Source: Pyrenophora tritici-repentis
Taxonomy: Eukaryota > Ascomycota > Dothideomycetes > Pleosporales > Pleosporaceae
Assembly (NCBI RefSeq): GCF_003171515.1
Contig: NC_089393.1
Coordinates: 248,001 to 312,000 of the forward strand
Length of the DNA stretch: 64,000 nt
Reading direction: 5' to 3'
A program made the translations under genes and the position numbers. Positions 5,851-12,629 of this stretch are shown piece by piece. The notes beneath the pieces are model-generated. The model did no database searches and was not told the origin of the DNA. It saw nothing but the letters and a program-made list of their open reading frames with translations. Numbering within the stretch: position 1 is the stretch's first letter; every line of letters begins with the position of its first letter.

Positions 5851-5855
5851 ATAGC
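5851..5855. repeat. Target-site duplication, left copy
   Basis: ATAGC lies directly before the left LTR. The same five bases follow the right LTR at 12625-12629. A 5-bp duplication is typical of Ty3/Gypsy integration and fixes the element borders. Confidence 0.92.
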
Positions 5856-6050
5856 TGTGAAGGTCGTCCGAAGATGATCTTGGGTTGGTTCTCGGGGATG
5901 GAGTGATGCGATGGACACGAGGTTGTATAGCACGATTGGTAGATCGATGTAATATACGGGGAGTTGAGAATCAAGTACTAATCCTTAGATTTCGAAGTTG
6001 AACACAATGAACCGTAAGGGCTCATTGCCTACTGTTATATAATAAGCGTG

Positions 6051-6122
6051 CCCTCCATTGTGGCCTTTCCCTCCATGGAGGTCGCACCCTCCGTGGAGGT
6101 CATGCCCTCCATGGCGGTCATG
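6051..6122. repeat. Four 18-bp tandem repeats in the U3 of the left LTR
   Basis: CCCTCC recurs at 6051, 6069, 6087 and 6105, exactly 18 bp apart, and a decayed fifth unit follows. Units 2 and 3 carry the palindromes CCTCCATGGAGG and CCTCCGTGGAGG. The array lies immediately upstream of the LTR TATA box (leftward transcription) and about 190-260 bp upstream of the TATA box of the rightward antisense gene. It looks like an enhancer for a dimeric DNA-binding protein; that role is inferred. Confidence 0.8.
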
Positions 6123-6139
6123 CCAAGGTTGGAGGGCAG

Positions 6140-6149
6140 GTCACGTGAC
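6140..6149. promoter_or_regulatory. Palindromic E-box-like site GTCACGTGAC in U3
   Basis: This perfect 10-bp palindrome around CACGTG is present in both LTRs (right copy 12531-12540). CACGTG is the core bound by bHLH factors of the Cbf1/Pho4 type. Use by the element is inferred. Confidence 0.45.
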
Positions 6150-6233
6150 TGCGCGGCACAAGCTTACCCGCTGTGCCCCGCCTTCAACGTTGTCCTGCCG
6201 TTGTTGCTTGTCCTTCTCCTTGCAATCGTAACA

Positions 6234-6248
6234 CTACCTCCCCCTTCC
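6234..6248 (-). other. Polypurine tract (PPT)
   Basis: On the minus strand a 15-base, nearly all-purine stretch (GGAAGGGGGAGGTAG) directly abuts the 3' LTR. This is the expected primer site for plus-strand DNA synthesis. Confidence 0.85.
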
Positions 6249-6308
6249 AGCGTATCGTCCCTGATACGTAGATTATCCGTGCCGTGGGGTCGCATAAGAG
6301 GTCCTGTG

Positions 6309-6316
6309 TATAAATA
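6309..6316 (+). promoter_or_regulatory. TATA box of the antisense Zn2Cys6 gene
   Basis: TATAAATA lies 48 bp before the ATG of the plus-strand ORF, in the only internal segment of the element not used by gag-pol. A short pyrimidine-rich leader follows. This suggests the ORF has its own promoter facing away from the LTR. Confidence 0.55.
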
Positions 6317-6364
6317 CTCGTGGTGGGTCGTCTTGTTTTCTGAATCCTTACAGCCTCCCTGACC

Positions 6365-6955
6365 ATGCCTAAAGAACCGAGGACCCGTGCGTCTCGCAAG
6401 AAGACAACCACCGAAGAGCGTTACGAACGCCTCCGTCGTGTCGAGCTTTCTGGACGAGAAATGCCGTTTCGCTGTGAGCGTTGCGAAAAGAATAACCTGC
6501 GGTGTTTTGTGGATACGGTGTCTGGTCGTTGTGCGGGTTGCATCTCAGCGCGATGCGACTGTGAGTTGTTTGTTCCTGAAGAGGAGTGGGAAAAGGTGGA
6601 ACAAGAAAAGCGCGATAAGGAGCTCGCGTTGCTACGTTTGGAAGAAGAGGTTGCCCGGGCTCGTCGTGAGCTGGCTGAGATAAGAAATCGTGAGCTGGCG
6701 TTTGCTCGTCGCGATCGAAAATTGTTGGATGCCTCGGAGCGGGCTCAGTCGTCGGAAAGTGGCAGTACTGTCGCCGCGTCTTCTTCTATCGGTTCTACCG
6801 CTGATCCGGGCTGGTCACAGGCCAACAACCTTCTTGATCCTTCGCTTGATCAAATTCTTAATGACTTCTTCCTTGAGGCCTCTGCCTCTGATCTCGATCC
6901 GTTTTCCTCGGCTGGTTCTTCTGGTATTGCGCCAGGAGTTGCCGACAGTTTGTGA
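6365..6955 (+). CDS. Antisense-encoded small Zn2Cys6 (Gal4-type) protein of the retrotransposon
   Basis: The protein is 196 aa and intronless. A basic N-terminus (residues 1-30) leads into cysteines 37, 40, 47, 56, 59 and 66, spaced C-x2-C-x6-C-x8-C-x2-C-x6-C. This is the fungal binuclear zinc cluster pattern. There is one extra Cys at 64. Residues ~72-125 are a charged Leu/Glu/Arg heptad region likely to form a coiled coil, as in dimeric Gal4-type factors. The C-terminus (~150-190) is Ser-rich and acidic with bulky hydrophobics (DQILNDFFLE), like an activation domain. No fungal middle-homology region is present, so it is far smaller than normal family members. It runs opposite to gag-pol, and its last 98 bp overlap the 3' end of pol. 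Transcription factor activity is inferred; a nucleocapsid-like or silencing-suppressor role is possible. Confidence 0.8.
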   Translation: MPKEPRTRASRKKTTTEERYERLRRVELSGREMPFRCERCEKNNLRCFVDTVSGRCAGCISARCDCELFVPEEEWEKVEQEKRDKELALLRLEEEVARARRELAEIRNRELAFARRDRKLLDASERAQSSESGSTVAASSSIGSTADPGWSQANNLLDPSLDQILNDFFLEASASDLDPFSSAGSSGIAPGVADSL

Positions 6956-7499
6956 GATTGGTATCTGGTTCCCATGTATTTTCGCTGTCTGGGTATCCTA
7001 ACCATTTGACTAGGTATTCCATGCCGTTGTCCACAACTCGATGTGTGACAATGTTCTCGACTTCAAATTCGTTTTCTTCTTCCGTTTCGTAGTGGAAGGT
7101 TTTCTGTAATGGCGTGTCTGGGTGTGCTGGTTCCAAGAGGCTTACGTGGAACCTAGGATGTATTCTAGCGTCTGGTGGAAGGTCAAGTGTGTATGTAACT
7201 GGCCCTTTCCGGTTAAGAATCAAAAATGGTCCGACTTTGACGTTGTCGAGTCCTTTGCTTGGTCGCTTCGTGCGAAGATTCTTTGTGCGTAGATAAACTT
7301 TATCCCCCCTCTTTAGCTGAGGTGCCATTTTTCGTTTCTTGTTGACATATGAAATGCTTTGACGTTGTGCTGTCTCGAGTTTGCTCTGTAGCAACTCATG
7401 TACTGCCTTCAGCTCCTCGGCTGTGGCGATAGCTGCTTTCCGTTTTCTGACTTGGAAGTGTGCGTGTAAAGAGATTTGGGTGTCTCCCGTGGTTTGCAT
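6858..7499 (-). pseudogene. pol fragment: integrase C-terminus with GPY/F segment and chromodomain
   Basis: This frame holds the end of integrase, offset from the core by one base. The GPY/F-type segment (KVGPFLILNRKGPVTYTLDLP) is followed by the linker HPRFHVSLLEPAHP. A chromodomain comes next with the aromatic positions of the fold (EYLVKWLGYP, ENTWEP). Chromodomains in such elements steer integration to histone-H3-marked chromatin. The only defect is the frame offset from the preceding fragment at about 7437-7446, which cuts this part off from translation unless corrected. The true junction lies near 7440, and codons upstream of that in this frame are shadow sequence. Confidence 0.9.
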
Positions 7500-8496
7500 A
7501 GAACGGAGTCTGTCCCGTAGACTCTGAAAGCTTGTTATTGTATGCCATTTGTGCCATTGGCAGAAGCGAAACCCAGTTGGTTTGCTGATGGTTGACGTAT
7601 ATCCTGAGATATGCTTTCATGGTTCTGTTCGTTCTTTCTGTCTGTCCGTCCGTCTGCGGATGAAACGCTGTTGATAGCTTGCGTTTTGTACCAATTGCGG
7701 CCAAAAGTGTCGTCCAAAAGTTTGAAGTGAAGAGCTTGTCTCTGTCGCTTATGATTGACTTTGGTATGCCGTGATGTCTGATGATTCGATCGTTGATGAT
7801 GTGAGCCAGATGTACTGCCGTGAAATCGTTTCTGAACGGGATGTACTCTGCTTGCTTGGTGAATCGATCGATTACAACGAGTATTGCGTTGTATCCTGTG
7901 TTTGTCGCTGGGTCTCTTGAGACTGGTAGACCTGTGACAAAGTCCATAGAGATGTCTGCCCAAGGTTCCGTGGGTAGTTCTAGTGCTTGCATCTCACCGT
8001 AAGGTGCATGCGTGTCGTGTTTGTTCTTCTGACAGTCTGCACATTTTGTGATGAATGAGGTAACCTTTTCCTTCATTCCTGGGAACTCGTAGTTGCGTCT
8101 GATGAGTTCCATTGTTCTGGTAATGCCCGGGTGACCGTGTACAGGGTCGTCGTGGTGTTGTTGAATAATTGCCTCTTGCAATTCTTCCGGTACATTGTTT
8201 CCGATGTGGAGGATGGCGTTCAGCGTTTTTGTTGGTCCTAGCGATCCGTCCTTGTTAACCTTGAGTATCGCGGTGTCGATGACTTCCTTGGTGCCTGCGA
8301 TATCTGGTCTTCGGCTGAGAGCGTCTGCTCTGCCGTTCTCTTTTCCTGGTGTATACACAATCTTGAACTTGTATTGTCCGAGTAGTTCTGACCATCTTAC
8401 TTGTCTGCGGTTGAGTACTTTGGTGGTCGTAAAGTTCACTAGATTTTTGTGATCTACATAAACTTTCCATAGCTTGTACAATACAACCTCAGTCAA
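7396..8496 (-). pseudogene. pol fragment: end of RNase H and integrase core
   Basis: The fragment begins with the last RNase H aspartate (VYVDHKNL). The chromovirus connection follows, then integrase. The zinc-binding HHCC region is visible (HHDDPVHGHPG and KCADCQKNK). The DDE core has D in MDFVTGLP, D in IISDRDKLF and E in DGQTERTNRTM. No ATG begins the frame; it is the same frame as the upstream RT fragment after the stop codons. It ends where the one-base frameshift near 7440 brings a stop. Confidence 0.9.
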
Positions 8497-8511
8497 TCCT
8501 CAACTTCTTCC

Positions 8512-10383
8512 CTATGCGTACGGTTCACCCACTCCAACACTCCAGTGTTGTAAGCATGCGACAATAGCTAGTAGCTCCTTGTCGTGAACGTCGTATCGTT
8601 CTTCTGGTCCTGAGAATTTGCGAGAGTAGTAGGCGATGGGGTGCCATTTGCCTTCGTGCAATTGACTTGCGCATCCGCCTAGCGCGAGATCCGATGCGTC
8701 GGTCTCAAAGCGTAATGGGTGTCCTGCTTGGAATATTCGAAAGCATGGTGGTTCTATGCTTGCTTTCTTAAGCGTTTGGAATGCGTTTTCTGCTTCCTTG
8801 CTCCACTTAAAGGGTACGTCCTTTCTTGTGAGTTTTGTCAAAGGGATGGCGATGTCTGAGAAGTCCTTGATGAACTGTCGGTTGAAGTTCAAGAATCCTA
8901 AGAAGGACTGTATCTGTACAACTGTTGTCGGTGTTGGCCAATCCTTGATAACCTGAATCTTTTCTTCGCTCATTTGTACTCCGTCCGCTCCTACTACATA
9001 GCCTAAGAAGTTGACCTTAGTCTTGTGAAATTCACACTTCTCTGGTTTGAGTCGGAGGTTGAACTGCTCAAGGGCCCTTAGTACCGTCTTGACATGTTCA
9101 ACATGGTCCTCTAAAGTCTCGGAGTAGACGAGAATGTCGTCTAGGTAAGCTATGACAAAGATGTCTAGATGTGCTCTCAACACGTTGTTGATGAGTTCCT
9201 GAAATGTGGCTGGGGCATTCGTGAGCCCAAACGGCATAACTGTGTATTCGTAGTGTCCGTATCTTGATCGGAACGCCGTTTTCCGCTCCTCACCTTTCGC
9301 TATGCGAATCAGGTGGTATCCATCTCGAAGATCTAATGCTGTAAAGATCTTTGCGCGAGATAATCGATCCCGTAGTTCTGTAATGTTCGGTAAGGGGTAT
9401 CGATTCTTGATTGTGATGTCGTTGAGCTTGCGATAGTCTACACATAGTCGTAGTTTTCCGTCTTTCTTCGGGACAAACATGATTGGATATCCTGCTGGTG
9501 ACTGCGATGGTCGGATATATTTCTTTGCTAGACTTGTCTTGATGTAGTCGCGTAACGTGCTCAATTCTTTTTCCGATAGTCCGTATATTGGGCCGAAAGT
9601 CGGTTTCTTTCCTTCCTGTAGGACAATCTTGTGGTCCCAGGGTTGGTGCTTTGGCAATGCTTGTTCATCTGCCACTTCCCGGAATAGATGTTCGAATTCT
9701 TTGTATTCTTCGGGAATCTCAGGAGTTGCGCGTTTCTCCAAAACTCTAGTCTGTCGACCCGGTGGCTCCGTTCCGGCGTCTGCTGAGTCGGACCCTTGTT
9801 TCTTAAGGCCGTCCTTTGTCGAGGCTCGCTTTTTCTTTGCGATGTTATTCAGTTTCCTCTCATCTACCATCGTACTCTGACAATGCGTAGGCTGGCTTGT
9901 GGTTGCGTCCGTTCCACAGCACTCAAATGAGAACGTCTTCGACTTCCAGTCGATCCGTGGGTTGTGTTCTCGTAACCAGGGAAGTCCTAATATGATGTCG
10001 TGGGTAGCTAGTCCGAAGACATCTAGGTCTATCTTCTCTTGGTGTCCTTGGATGTTGAGCGTCACTTGTCTGACCTCATGGGTGATCTCTTGTTCACCTG
10101 GCATTGGCTCTCCGTTGGCCACATGTAGTGGGTAAGCTTCTTGTTTCCGTAGTGGCTTCAGTCCGGCTGAAGACGCTGCGTGCGCTGAAACGTAGTTGGC
10201 TTGTGATCCCGAATCTACTAATGCCTTCATCCACCTCCCTTCAAGCTTCACCTGGAGCTTGATGAGGTCTAAGGAGTTTACTGAGTTAATCTCCTTGCCG
10301 GGCCGTTCTGGGCCGGGCGCTGGTCTAAAAAAGCCTGATTTCCAAATCCATGGAATCCTTTGGCTATCGCATGAAGGTCGCAT
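8512..10383 (-). pseudogene. pol fragment: protease, reverse transcriptase and start of RNase H
   Basis: This is the -1 frame relative to gag, entered by frameshifting at 10326-10332 rather than by its own start. The protease has the catalytic DSG (ALVDSGSQ, codon 57 of the open frame). RT shows conserved blocks from the LRLCVDYRKLN motif through VMPFGLTNAPATFQ to YLDD near codons 411-414. RNase H begins with FETDASDLALGG and has the Glu of DKELLAIVAC. The frame then meets TAG at 8512-8514 and TGA at 8500-8502 and resumes in the same frame. The segment between the Glu and the final Asp of RNase H is thus interrupted. Confidence 0.92.
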
Positions 10384-12230
10384 TCTTTGCTAAGGCACGT
10401 TTGCCAGTTGGGTTGTTGACATTCCCAAGCGTCTCCTTCATCGTATTCTTTTAGCCATACTGTTTGCATCTGATCAATTTCTTCGGGGTTGTCGTGACCT
10501 GGGAAGTATGTTTTTTCCCTTTTGTCCCATAGGTGTATTGGGCATAGGTCGTTTTTGCAGTCGAAGAATTGCCACTTGCAGCGGTACGATCGTTTGGTTT
10601 CTTCTGGGAACCATCCTGATCCGGACTTATCCGAGTAGTGTACTCTGCAATGGTCGTGAATGCATGTGACCCATGATAACTTCTCATGTTCTGGGTTCCT
10701 AGGGTCCATCCAGTAGTCGTATTCCTTTGATCTACTGATGTCCTTGGCCTTTCTCTTGTGGCCGTGTTGGAAGGTCTTCCAATCGTTCCTGGTCTGGCAG
10801 AGTTCGTCGTAGATCTCTTGCTTCTCTTCTTCCGAGATTGGCAACGTTGGTTCTTCCCATGATCGGATTGCGTCTTCGATCCAGCTTAGTTCCCATGTTG
10901 TTGGTAGGAACTCCAATATTTCGGTTGAAACGTTTTCCTTGTTTCGTTGTACTTCTAGTGACAATCGGTAGAAGTCCTGTCGCATAGCAGCCATGATGCT
11001 AGGTTCCTCGTAGGCGTACTCGATATCAGCCTTGTTGAGGTGTCGTAGTAGCTGGTTGATCTGTCCTGCGAGCTTGTAGAACTCTTCTTCCTGTACATAA
11101 GGTGTGGATGGCCTGTTGACTTCTTCGAATGTGGCCATCTTGCCGAATTTGGTCTGGTCGATTTCCGTAGCCTCTAAGTTCTTGGACTCATCTTCGAGCA
11201 TATCGTACTCCGAAGTGGGCTCTTCTTCTGAGTCTGATTCCACGAGTGTGAGGTTATCCAATCCCAAAACGCTTTCCTGCGTGTTGATTTCGATGGTTGG
11301 TTTGGATATGACATTCCATGTCTCGTGTCGCTCAGTGGGTACTGCTTTGTGGATAACGTTGAGTTGTCTAACCACTTTGTTCTTGCTGTGGCAGTCCCTA
11401 GCCATGTGACCTTTCTTGTCACAATTATAACAAGTGATCTCCTTCTTGTTATATGGCTTCTTCTTGTCATTCCTTCCGAAACTCTTGCCTTTGTTGATGT
11501 TGTCCAGTTGCATTGCATCAGGGTCATGCCAGTTGTTACCGGCGGAGGGTACAACACCTCCGGGTGTCATCCGATATCCTGGTTTCTTCTTGAAGAATCG
11601 TCCCTTTGTGCGTTGCACTGACTGGTTGGCTCTAACCGGTCGGATTTCCTGCTGCAATTCGTAGAGTGCGTTGTCGATACGAATTGATTCTCGGATGAGA
11701 TCCTGTAGGTTGTTGATTGCGACGCCGCTTCGCATAAGCTCTTCTTTGACTCTTTCCTTGAGTCCTTGTCTGTACATAACCCTTAATGCCTTGTCGTCCC
11801 AGTCGGTCTTCAGGGCGTGTCCCTGGAAGACACTGGCGTAGTCGGCGACTGATTGGGTTTGTTTGAGCTGTTGGATTGCACGATCTGCCTTGGATTCTTC
11901 GTTGATGACTCCGAATTGCTGTCTAAGCTTGTCTTTGAAGGTTGGGTGGTCTTCAAACATTCGTTCAATATCGTCGTCGTCATCGTTGTCGTCCATGTAT
12001 TTGTTGAGGTAAGGCTTGATCCAGGTGGCGGCAGTTCCTCGCATGTAACTTGCCATGAGCAGTCCACGATCAGTAGGGTCGACCTTCTCATCTTCAAACC
12101 TGAAGAAGAGATCGAACTGGAGAATCCAGTCTTCGAGCTTGTGTCGATCGCCGTGAAATAGATCGGGTCTGGCCACCTTGGTGCGGCTTGACGAAGTTTC
12201 GTTAGGTGTGTTCATCGGGGTGTCACTCAT
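10278..12230 (-). CDS. Gag polyprotein with CCHC knuckle and triple C-x4-C-x2-H repeat
   Basis: The protein is about 650 aa. The start chosen is the first ATG in frame (MSDTPMN), eight bases after the putative primer-binding site; the frame upstream has no ATG. A retrotransposon-gag (capsid) domain covers ~25-200 (FHGDRHKLEDWILQFD... TWIKPYL). A CCHC zinc knuckle (CYNCDKKGHMARDC) lies near 265-279. An acidic region follows, and at ~515-630 there are three copies of C-x4-C-x2-H, each preceded by a Trp. The 3' end overlaps pol by 106 bp. A slippery heptamer in the gag frame explains Pol expression. Gag is intact, so this copy could still supply particles. Confidence 0.93.
   Translation of the reverse strand: MSDTPMNTPNETSSSRTKVARPDLFHGDRHKLEDWILQFDLFFRFEDEKVDPTDRGLLMASYMRGTAATWIKPYLNKYMDDNDDDDDIERMFEDHPTFKDKLRQQFGVINEESKADRAIQQLKQTQSVADYASVFQGHALKTDWDDKALRVMYRQGLKERVKEELMRSGVAINNLQDLIRESIRIDNALYELQQEIRPVRANQSVQRTKGRFFKKKPGYRMTPGGVVPSAGNNWHDPDAMQLDNINKGKSFGRNDKKKPYNKKEITCYNCDKKGHMARDCHSKNKVVRQLNVIHKAVPTERHETWNVISKPTIEINTQESVLGLDNLTLVESDSEEEPTSEYDMLEDESKNLEATEIDQTKFGKMATFEEVNRPSTPYVQEEEFYKLAGQINQLLRHLNKADIEYAYEEPSIMAAMRQDFYRLSLEVQRNKENVSTEILEFLPTTWELSWIEDAIRSWEEPTLPISEEEKQEIYDELCQTRNDWKTFQHGHKRKAKDISRSKEYDYWMDPRNPEHEKLSWVTCIHDHCRVHYSDKSGSGWFPEETKRSYRCKWQFFDCKNDLCPIHLWDKREKTYFPGHDNPEEIDQMQTVWLKEYDEGDAWECQQPNWQTCLSKECDLHAIAKGFHGFGNQAFLDQRPAQNGPARRLTQ
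10326..10332 (-). promoter_or_regulatory. -1 ribosomal frameshift site T TTT TTA (gag-pol)
   Basis: On the minus strand the gag frame reads GCT TTT TTA GAC, an exact X XXY YYZ heptamer. Slipping back one base continues directly into the protease-RT frame. The following 30 bases are GC-rich and can form short stems, but no structure was modelled. It is the only such heptamer I noticed in the 106-bp overlap. Confidence 0.8.
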
Positions 12231-12237
12231 CTTGAGG

Positions 12238-12247
12238 GTGTTCAAAG
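12238..12247 (-). other. Primer-binding site, probably for self-priming
   Basis: The minus strand just inside the 5' LTR reads CTTTGAACAC. Its last eight bases are complementary to GTGTTCAA, the predicted 5' end of the element RNA (12396 to 12389). This is the arrangement of Tf1/sushi-type self-primed elements. The two-base offset from the LTR end and the short pairing leave a tRNA primer possible. Confidence 0.5.
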
Positions 12248-12425
12248 TGTGAAGGTCGTCCGAAGATGATCTTGGGTTGGTTCTCGGGATGGAGTGATGC
12301 GATGGACACGAGGTTGTATAGCACGATTGGTAGATCGATGTAATATACGGGGAGTTGAGAATCAAGTACTAATCCTTAGATTTCGAAGTTGAACACAATG
12401 AACCGTAAGGGCTCATTGCCTACTG

Positions 12426-12432
12426 TTATATA
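12426..12432 (-). promoter_or_regulatory. LTR TATA box
   Basis: TATATAA on the minus strand, directly downstream of the repeat array. About 30 bases further is GTGTTCAA (from 12396), the predicted transcript start that could pair with the PBS. Confidence 0.65.
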
Positions 12433-12441
12433 ATAAGCGTG

Positions 12442-12513
12442 CCCTCCATTGTGGCCTTTCCCTCCATGGAGGTCGCACCCTCCGTGGAGGTCATGCCCTC
12501 CATGGCGGTCATG
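12442..12513. repeat. Four 18-bp tandem repeats in the U3 of the right LTR
   Basis: Same array as in the left LTR, with CCCTCC at 12442, 12460, 12478 and 12496. It sits immediately upstream of the promoter that drives gag-pol. Confidence 0.8.
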
Positions 12514-12624
12514 CCAAGGTTGGAGGGCAGGTCACGTGACTGCGCGGCACAAGCTTACCCGCTGTGCCCCGCCTTCAACGTTGTCCTGCCGTTGTTGCTT
12601 GTCCTTCTCCTTGCAATCGTAACA

Positions 12625-12629
12625 ATAGC
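12625..12629. repeat. Target-site duplication, right copy
   Basis: ATAGC, identical to the five bases before the left LTR. Confidence 0.92.

Follow-up and report, generated by a model that had tools for sequence, protein, structure and literature searches.

The stretch of Pyrenophora tritici-repentis DNA analysed here (the window: 64,000 nucleotides, positions 248,001 to 312,000 of NC_089393.1) carries a long terminal repeat (LTR) retrotransposon of the Ty3/gypsy chromovirus type and, between its pol gene and its 3′ LTR, a gene oriented opposite to gag-pol. A sequence-only reading of the window had drawn attention to this antisense gene as one for a Gal4-type (Zn2Cys6) protein, and had suggested that an element-borne, separately promoted DNA-binding protein would give the retrotransposon its own transcriptional control or a means of acting on host genes. 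Our analysis places the element in one of three groups, A (the window copy and its nearest relatives), B and C, which are present in one genome. They have near-identical gag-pol genes and near-identical R (repeat) and U5 (unique 5′) segments of the LTR, with the antisense gene and the adjoining U3 (unique 3′) segment replaced from group to group. We refer to an antisense gene and its U3 as a cassette.

An antisense zinc-cluster gene in a chromovirus-type element

The element displays the features of Ty3/gypsy chromoviruses in the usual order, that is, LTRs, a target-site duplication (TSD), a polypurine tract, a gag open reading frame (ORF), protease, reverse transcriptase (RT), RNase H, integrase (IN) and chromodomain (Table 1). 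A Pfam scan of the minus strand detected the aspartic protease, RT, RNase H, the zinc-binding and core domains of IN and the chromodomain; gag was assigned from its ORF and its position. The two LTRs of the window copy differ at a single alignment column, and in the four A copies in which LTR pairs could be measured the differences amount to 0, 1, 0 and 1 columns. The five A copies of the genome show no difference in the antisense ORF, as expected because the A elements are so young.

As the sequence-only reading had stated, an intact ORF of 196 codons is present between integrase and the 3′ LTR, on the strand opposite to gag-pol, and its cysteine cluster has exactly the spacing expected (C37-x2-C40-x6-C47-x8-C56-x2-C59-x6-C66), with one additional cysteine at residue 64. 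The predicted structure is consistent with the coiled coil that had been proposed: residues 72-133 form a long helix, and the predicted local distance difference test scores of 10-residue blocks range from 89 to 98 over residues 71-130. The acidic and hydrophobic tail was likewise confirmed, the last 55 residues having a net charge of -8 and 11 F, W, Y, L or M residues, as was the candidate TATA box, a TATAAA located 56 bases 5′ of the ATG, which makes a separate promoter for the antisense gene of group A plausible. AlphaFold models of the A and B proteins both consist of the cluster followed by a single long helix, and all nine Foldseek matches of the A protein and 20 of the 21 of the B protein, although weak throughout, carry titles of Zn2Cys6 regulators; the weak structural matches of the A protein include Pho7, Gal4, Hap1 and Ppr1. 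The A, B and C proteins all match the regular expression C-x2-C-x6-C-x5..12-C-x2-C-x6..8-C. The Pfam profile Zn_clus (PF00172) gave no match at E<=1 for the window protein, and the B and C proteins score 12.6 and 10.5 bits, respectively, for a cut-off of 21. Among 36 aligned relatives of the A protein, 28 match this profile at E<=1 and two at 1e-3, with a best value of 3.4e-6.

The antisense ORF meets the 3′ end of pol tail to tail, and the last 98 bases of the ORF (6858-6955) are common to both. We rejected the possibility that the ORF arose by chance or is a shadow of pol, as this overlap involves just 98 of its 591 bases and many relatives have invariant cysteines. The C-termini of pol in groups A, B and C diverge just past the chromodomain, at the start of the exchanged block described below.

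The sequence-only reading had also contrasted an intact antisense gene with a broken pol. This holds for the window copy, in which pol is split into two ORFs meeting near 8.5 kb, but not for the group, since pol is an uninterrupted ORF of 1159 codons in three of the four other A copies (it stops at codon 1038 in the fourth). The contrast is not evidence for selection because the pol break is private to the window copy: the stretch 8456-8536 of that copy, which differs from all four others, breaks the frame. Another A copy (L010, G000:C7:2491000-2499200) has approximately 1 kb of extra sequence in the gag region, which is present neither in the window nor in the other A copies fetched. No tRNA-type primer-binding site was recognized by eye at 12236-12247, after the 5′ LTR, where no search was made. 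Within the sense sequence CTTTGAACACCC that follows this LTR, 8 nt (TTGAACAC) are complementary to a stretch inside the LTR. This complementarity may point to self-priming, a feature of Tf1 and sushi-type elements.

Table 1. Features of the group A element, in window coordinates; gag-pol is encoded by the minus strand.
Feature	Position	Strand	Remarks
Chromovirus-type Ty3/gypsy LTR element with 5-bp TSDs	5851..12629	-	Terminal direct repeats, TSD, pol domains
Element proper	5856-12624	-	Sole chromovirus noted in the window
TSD (ATAGC)	5851-5855 and 12625-12629		Both flanks of the element
3′ LTR	5856-6233	-	
Part of 3′ LTR common to groups A, B and C	5856..6045	-	TATA-like box (TATATA at 6036), presumed R and U5
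Cassette-specific U3 part of 3′ LTR	6046..6233	-	Upstream of the TATA-like box
Exchanged block	6046..6921		Upstream U3, polypurine tract and antisense gene; flanks 96-98% identical to group B
Half-site array of cassette A	6052..6135		CCTCC at 6052, 6070, 6088, 6106; GGAGG/GGCGG at 6077, 6095, 6113, 6131
CACGTG box	6142..6147		Just beyond the array
Polypurine tract GGAAGGGGGAGGTAG	6234..6248	-	Adjoins the 3′ LTR; direct sequence reading
Candidate TATA box of antisense gene, TATAAATA	6309..6316	+	TATAAA at 6309
Antisense gene of cassette A, 196 aa	6365..6955	+	ATG start; opposite to gag-pol, adjoins the 3′ LTR
Zn2Cys6-type cluster	6473..6562	+	Residues 37-66
Long predicted helix	6578..6763	+	Residues 72-133; presumed dimerization coiled coil
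Acidic C-terminal tail with aromatic and Leu residues	6788..6952	+	Last 55 residues; candidate activation region
3′ portion of pol	6858..8496	-	Two overlapping ORFs (6858-7499, 7396-8496) with the end of RNase H, IN and the chromodomain
5′ portion of pol	8512..10383	-	Protease, RT and the beginning of RNase H; reading frame broken near 8.5 kb
gag ORF, 650 aa	10278..12230	-	
5′ LTR	12248-12624	-	Same U3 array as the 3′ LTR

Exchange of the antisense gene together with its neighbouring U3

Protein searches identified 44 relatives of the window protein at E<=0.01, and at least 145 with a profile search, a lower bound reached with 7999 candidates scored. The named relatives are from Dothideomycetes, mostly Pleosporales. 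In an alignment of 36 of the 44 (P0003, P0020, P0023, P0027, P0030, P0032, P0036 and P0039, which are short or odd, were dropped), five cysteines of the cluster are invariant and the sixth is conserved in at least 90% of the sequences. The relatives of the B protein (58 proteins) are widespread; their alignment includes 35 of the 58, many of which start at a later methionine and are thus devoid of the first three cysteines. Neither the A and B profiles nor the window IN retrieved any relative from IMG/VR.

Group B was reached by a genome search with P0005, a relative of the window protein. Its IN is nearly identical to that of the window copy, and its antisense protein, 189 aa in length, is 27% identical to the A protein over 78 residues. 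In the five of eight B copies that align in one piece, gag-pol is 96% identical to that of group A over 5.5 kb, and the part of the LTR comprising U5, R and the TATA-like box is 97-98% identical over 190 nt in all eight. Comparison of the window element with one B copy in bins of 200 bp gave identities of 0.93-1.00 in gag-pol, with the exception of one bin (0.69) where the sequence is rearranged, near 8.5 kb, versus 0.32-0.42 over the U3 and the antisense gene. The global alignment of the A and B U3 segments has an identity of about 0.38, and pairwise blastn between U3s recovers only short islands.

The single C copy that we read, over 1.4 kb, follows the same pattern as group B, with another U3 and another antisense ORF. 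It is 95% identical to A over 186 nt of the LTR part and 89-92% identical over around 100 bases at the end of pol, and A-C similarity ends at the TATA-like box, as does A-B similarity. The C antisense ORF encodes 171 aa with cysteines at positions 27, 30, 37, 50, 53 and 60. The clusters of A, B and C differ in their third loop (x8, x8 and x12, respectively) and last loop (x6, x7 and x6), and their tails all have a net charge of -8. The profiles of the A and B families match each other with a HHalign probability of 97 (E 8e-11); C resembles both families weakly, in matches confined to the cluster region, with probabilities of 67 (E 5e-5) and 27 (E 7e-4).

The sequence-only reading had made its proposal depend on the presence of homologues at the same antisense position in other elements. 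These were found: exactly one cassette, on the opposite strand, accompanies each of the 23 elements with a near-complete IN at least 92% identical to that of the window (5 A, 8 B and 10 C), cassettes and INs being paired by their coordinates. In all 23, the gene is thus a conserved antisense ORF between pol and the 3′ LTR, of the type called aORF-3R or brtn. Three partial close INs were left uncounted, one located in a B element and two without a cassette match alongside. Stops are present in 2 of 10 B genes and 2 of 10 C genes are split; two of the B genes (on C1 and C10) sit in elements without a near-complete IN. A host gene captured by one copy only could be rejected, as the gene is identical in five elements and related genes exist in the sister groups and in other species.

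We scored 112 of 317 IN candidates, of which 26 are close and 86 distant, and examined one of the distant ones. This gypsy element (L065, IN 40% identical, 901 bases read) is without an antisense gene and has a purine tract and the presumed start of its LTR within about 20 bases after pol; for this element, at least, an antisense gene as a general trait of gypsy elements in the genome does not apply. A whole-genome search with Zn_clus (150 of 184 candidates scored) showed, by eye and without a formal test, no match beside distant INs; the genes of A, B and C themselves are missing from its list, which is thus blind to genes of this kind. L011, the locus around a weak genomic match, has no blastn match to the A element.

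Half-site arrays in the exchanged U3 segments

In each of the three U3 segments, half-sites in both orientations form an array that lies immediately upstream of the TATA-like box. In group A, four CCTCC-N20-GG[AC]GG pairs follow each other with a period of 18 bp, and the array also holds palindromes of the CCTCCATGGAGG type at 6070, 6088 and 6106. In group C, TCCTCG-N12-CGAGGA occurs four times, with differing spacers, and in group B seven sites (two of them with one mismatch), GTCCYA and then TRGGAC, are arranged in exact steps of 10 bp. These motifs are specific to their own cassette: TCCTCG is present eight times in the C segment and never in A or B, GTCCYA eight times in B and never in A or C, and CCTCC seven times in A, twice in C and never in B.

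The A and C arrays were not reached by any of 1000 dinucleotide shuffles, when all words and gaps up to 25 were considered. The B array failed this all-words test (990 of 1000 shuffles reach its score) because GTCCTA predominates at its forward sites and TGGGAC at its reverse sites. The run of seven B sites at 10-bp steps compares with a maximum of four in 300 shuffles and of three in 20 coding chunks, and each of 28 gag-pol chunks contains at most one A-type CCTCC-N20-GG[AC]GG pair. The count of the commonest 5-mer of the U3 was reached in 0 of 500 shuffles for all three groups, and that of the commonest 6-mer in 0, 17 and 0 of 500 for A, B and C, respectively; a looser count of inverted 5-mer pairs was reached in 9, 57 and 0 of 1000. 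No such array was detected in the R and U5 part of A, in the distal U3s, or in the presumed LTR of one unrelated gypsy element.

In the whole genome (40.9 Mb), the candidate C operator occurs 126 times and a reversed control pattern never. Among approximately the first 50 sites listed, nearly all are grouped, the pattern expected of LTRs, and at least one stands alone; the C element that we read is flanked by two of the groups. A CACGTG box lies past the array at a like place in all three U3s (window; L048, L064), and is likely the site of a host factor common to all cassettes. A diverged solo LTR of the A type (L066, C10:4067350-4067990), 82% identical over 240 columns, has kept CCTCC and GGAGG half-sites with rearranged spacers and has lost the 18-bp period; it should be useful for following the turnover of the array.

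A candidate regulator-plus-operator module

The interpretation that we favour, and consider reasonably probable, is that the antisense protein, as a dimer, regulates the U3 of the element that encodes it, and that the two are exchanged between elements as a regulator-plus-operator module. The ORF would be the regulator gene of a self-contained control module in a lineage of Ty3/gypsy chromoviruses of Dothideomycetes, and its product a small homodimeric coiled-coil DNA-binding protein of the Zn2Cys6 type with an acidic tail. Inverted half-sites at fixed spacing, with variable spacers, are the type of site recognized by Gal4-type dimers (Gal4, Put3, Ppr1), and the array in the U3 of its own LTR is the most likely target of the regulator. 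A dimeric zinc-cluster protein on this array would control both gag-pol and itself. Reverse transcription copies the U3 to the 5′ LTR, where it would drive gag-pol under the control of the regulator, and in the 3′ LTR the U3 lies directly upstream of the antisense gene, a geometry suggestive of autoregulation. In cassettes B and C, the antisense promoter is probably in the U3 itself, because the gap between LTR and ORF is only 45 and 57 bases, respectively. As the gene and the array are adjacent, and flanked by likely places of strand transfer (R and the end of pol), recombination between co-packaged RNAs could move them together and keep cognate pairs. The transcriptional control suggested by the sequence-only reading gains indirect support from the constant antisense location of the gene, its conservation and its inheritance with the U3 array.

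As for the sign of this regulation, the acidic tail leads us to lean slightly towards an activator. A variant that overlaps with the favoured interpretation would have the protein act as a repressor, for copy-number control or immunity against elements with the same cassette, A, B and C being mutually blind and able to co-invade a genome. Repression or element-specific immunity agrees nearly as well with the finding of three cassettes that share a backbone within a single genome, which would be expected if differences in specificity were selected, and the geometry fits autoregulation. However, the acidic aromatic tails look more like activation regions, such as those of Gal4-type activators, and we regard the repressor variant as possible but doubtful. 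More broadly, the antisense Zn2Cys6 regulators and their cognate U3 arrays might constitute exchangeable specificity cassettes, giving elements that share a nucleus separate regulation wherever their cassettes differ; we put this forward tentatively, with a confidence that falls a little short of even.

Several observations weigh against a regulator acting on its own U3. In none of the three groups does the zinc cluster reach the Pfam cut-off, the number of cassettes, three in a single genome, is small, and group C rests on one sequenced copy plus matches at the protein level. The sense U3 arrays of A, B and C also form better RNA folds than their shuffled versions (z -5.0, -2.4 and -3.6, respectively). 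Block exchange accounts for the linkage of gene and array without any function. The block could indeed be swapped merely for the ease of reverse transcription, by first-strand transfer in R between co-packaged RNAs and a switch back in pol, with the arrays bound by unrelated host factors and the protein acting elsewhere, for instance in integration, nuclear import or on host genes. The breakpoints, located on the LTR's R/U3 side and where pol ends, roughly fit this scenario, and the CACGTG box common to the three U3s suggests additional binding of host factors. The crapaud element of Podospora anserina has subfamilies with a divergent U3, conserved R and U5 and a largely homologous interior, for which the same transfer mechanism has been proposed, together with selection on promoter function (PMC10787394). 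No regulator gene is tied to the U3 types in the description available, and the terms 'antisense' and 'palindrom' do not occur in the main text of that article (PMC10787394). Strand transfer, however, leaves unexplained why distinct high-copy arrays of dimer-type half-sites should change just where a DNA-binding gene changes, and the similarity between groups runs through the TATA-like box instead of ending inside R. We consider this explanation unlikely.

It appears less probable still, indeed very improbable, that the arrays act as RNA hairpins, in packaging, 3′ end formation or the production of small RNAs, and that the antisense ORF serves chiefly to produce antisense transcripts or small interfering RNAs (siRNAs) limiting the element. 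Such a role would be in line with the folding of the arrays, and antisense transcripts and siRNA control have been discussed for plant elements (PMC7264820). Nevertheless, this folding is what inverted arrays would give in any case, whereas the exact 10-bp phasing of B and the constant N12 with differing spacers of C argue for DNA; moreover, the conservation across many species of a protein with invariant cysteines is not needed for an RNA role.

Antisense genes at this location form a known class, for which we propose a concrete and testable target, the U3 array. The brtn gene of Boty was reportedly described in 2011, by Zhao and co-workers in Virology. In Boty-like elements of Botrytis cinerea, brtn lies antisense between pol and the 3′ LTR (PMC8365987; PMC7264820; PMC4227169; PMC5987419). 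As far as these sources describe them, such elements resemble that of group A as fungal LTR elements with gag, RT, IN, a chromodomain and an additional antisense gene, a likeness of layout; one BcGypsy1 consensus is said to be without the start of brtn (PMC8365987). No match named BRTN or Botrytis was present among the relatives of the A protein listed (120 of 145) or in the first lists for A and B. Plant antisense ORFs, such as gene23 of Grande, those of RIRE2 and PvRetro13, and TRP28 of Retand, are likewise located between pol and the 3′ LTR, with an own promoter in Grande and a nuclear protein or predicted DNA binding; unlike the A gene, they have no zinc cluster, cognate arrays or cassette swaps in the descriptions available (PMC7264820; PMC11963269). 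According to the same sources, the functions of antisense genes of the brtn, gene23 and TRP28 type are unknown, and regulatory roles have been suggested (PMC7264820; PMC11963269).

Other systems share single aspects with the proposed module. The protein of group A resembles Gal4, Put3, Ppr1, Hap1 and Leu3 in its Zn2Cys6 cluster and linker and, as predicted, in its coiled-coil dimer. It differs from Gal4-type regulators in that its arrays have no evident CGG core, in its size (<200 aa), in its location on a retrotransposon and in a first cluster loop (EKNNLR) poor in K and R. Tas of foamy viruses, in the accounts available, is element-encoded and binds and activates its own LTR, as would the A regulator; it is a protein of vertebrate retroviruses, encoded on the sense strand and unrelated in sequence. 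HBZ of human T-cell leukaemia virus is a basic leucine zipper protein, and we know of no pairing of HBZ with swapped operators. Like the A gene, that of HBZ lies antisense to gag-pol, and it encodes a nuclear regulator (PMC11963269). In immunity regions of lambdoid phages, a regulator and its operators are exchanged as a unit among mobile genomes that are alike in other respects. These involve repressors of bacterial phages, whereas immunity is a proposal for A, B and C. In the open-licence literature of PubMed Central, we found no report joining an antisense zinc-cluster gene with paired, swapped U3 operator arrays, which is weak evidence of absence.

The function of antisense genes between pol and the 3′ LTR, in plants and fungi, now becomes directly testable, as each of the three groups provides a natural regulator/operator pair with a defined candidate site, on almost one backbone. 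If our interpretation is correct, these retrotransposons carry their own promoter-specific transcription factor, exchangeable as a module, and would offer, in their small zinc-cluster regulators, a natural set in which to study changes in the DNA specificity of this fold. It would also provide a cause for subfamily diversification limited to the U3, which could account for subfamilies of the crapaud type, and the cassettes would then represent a eukaryotic retroelement counterpart of phage immunity regions.
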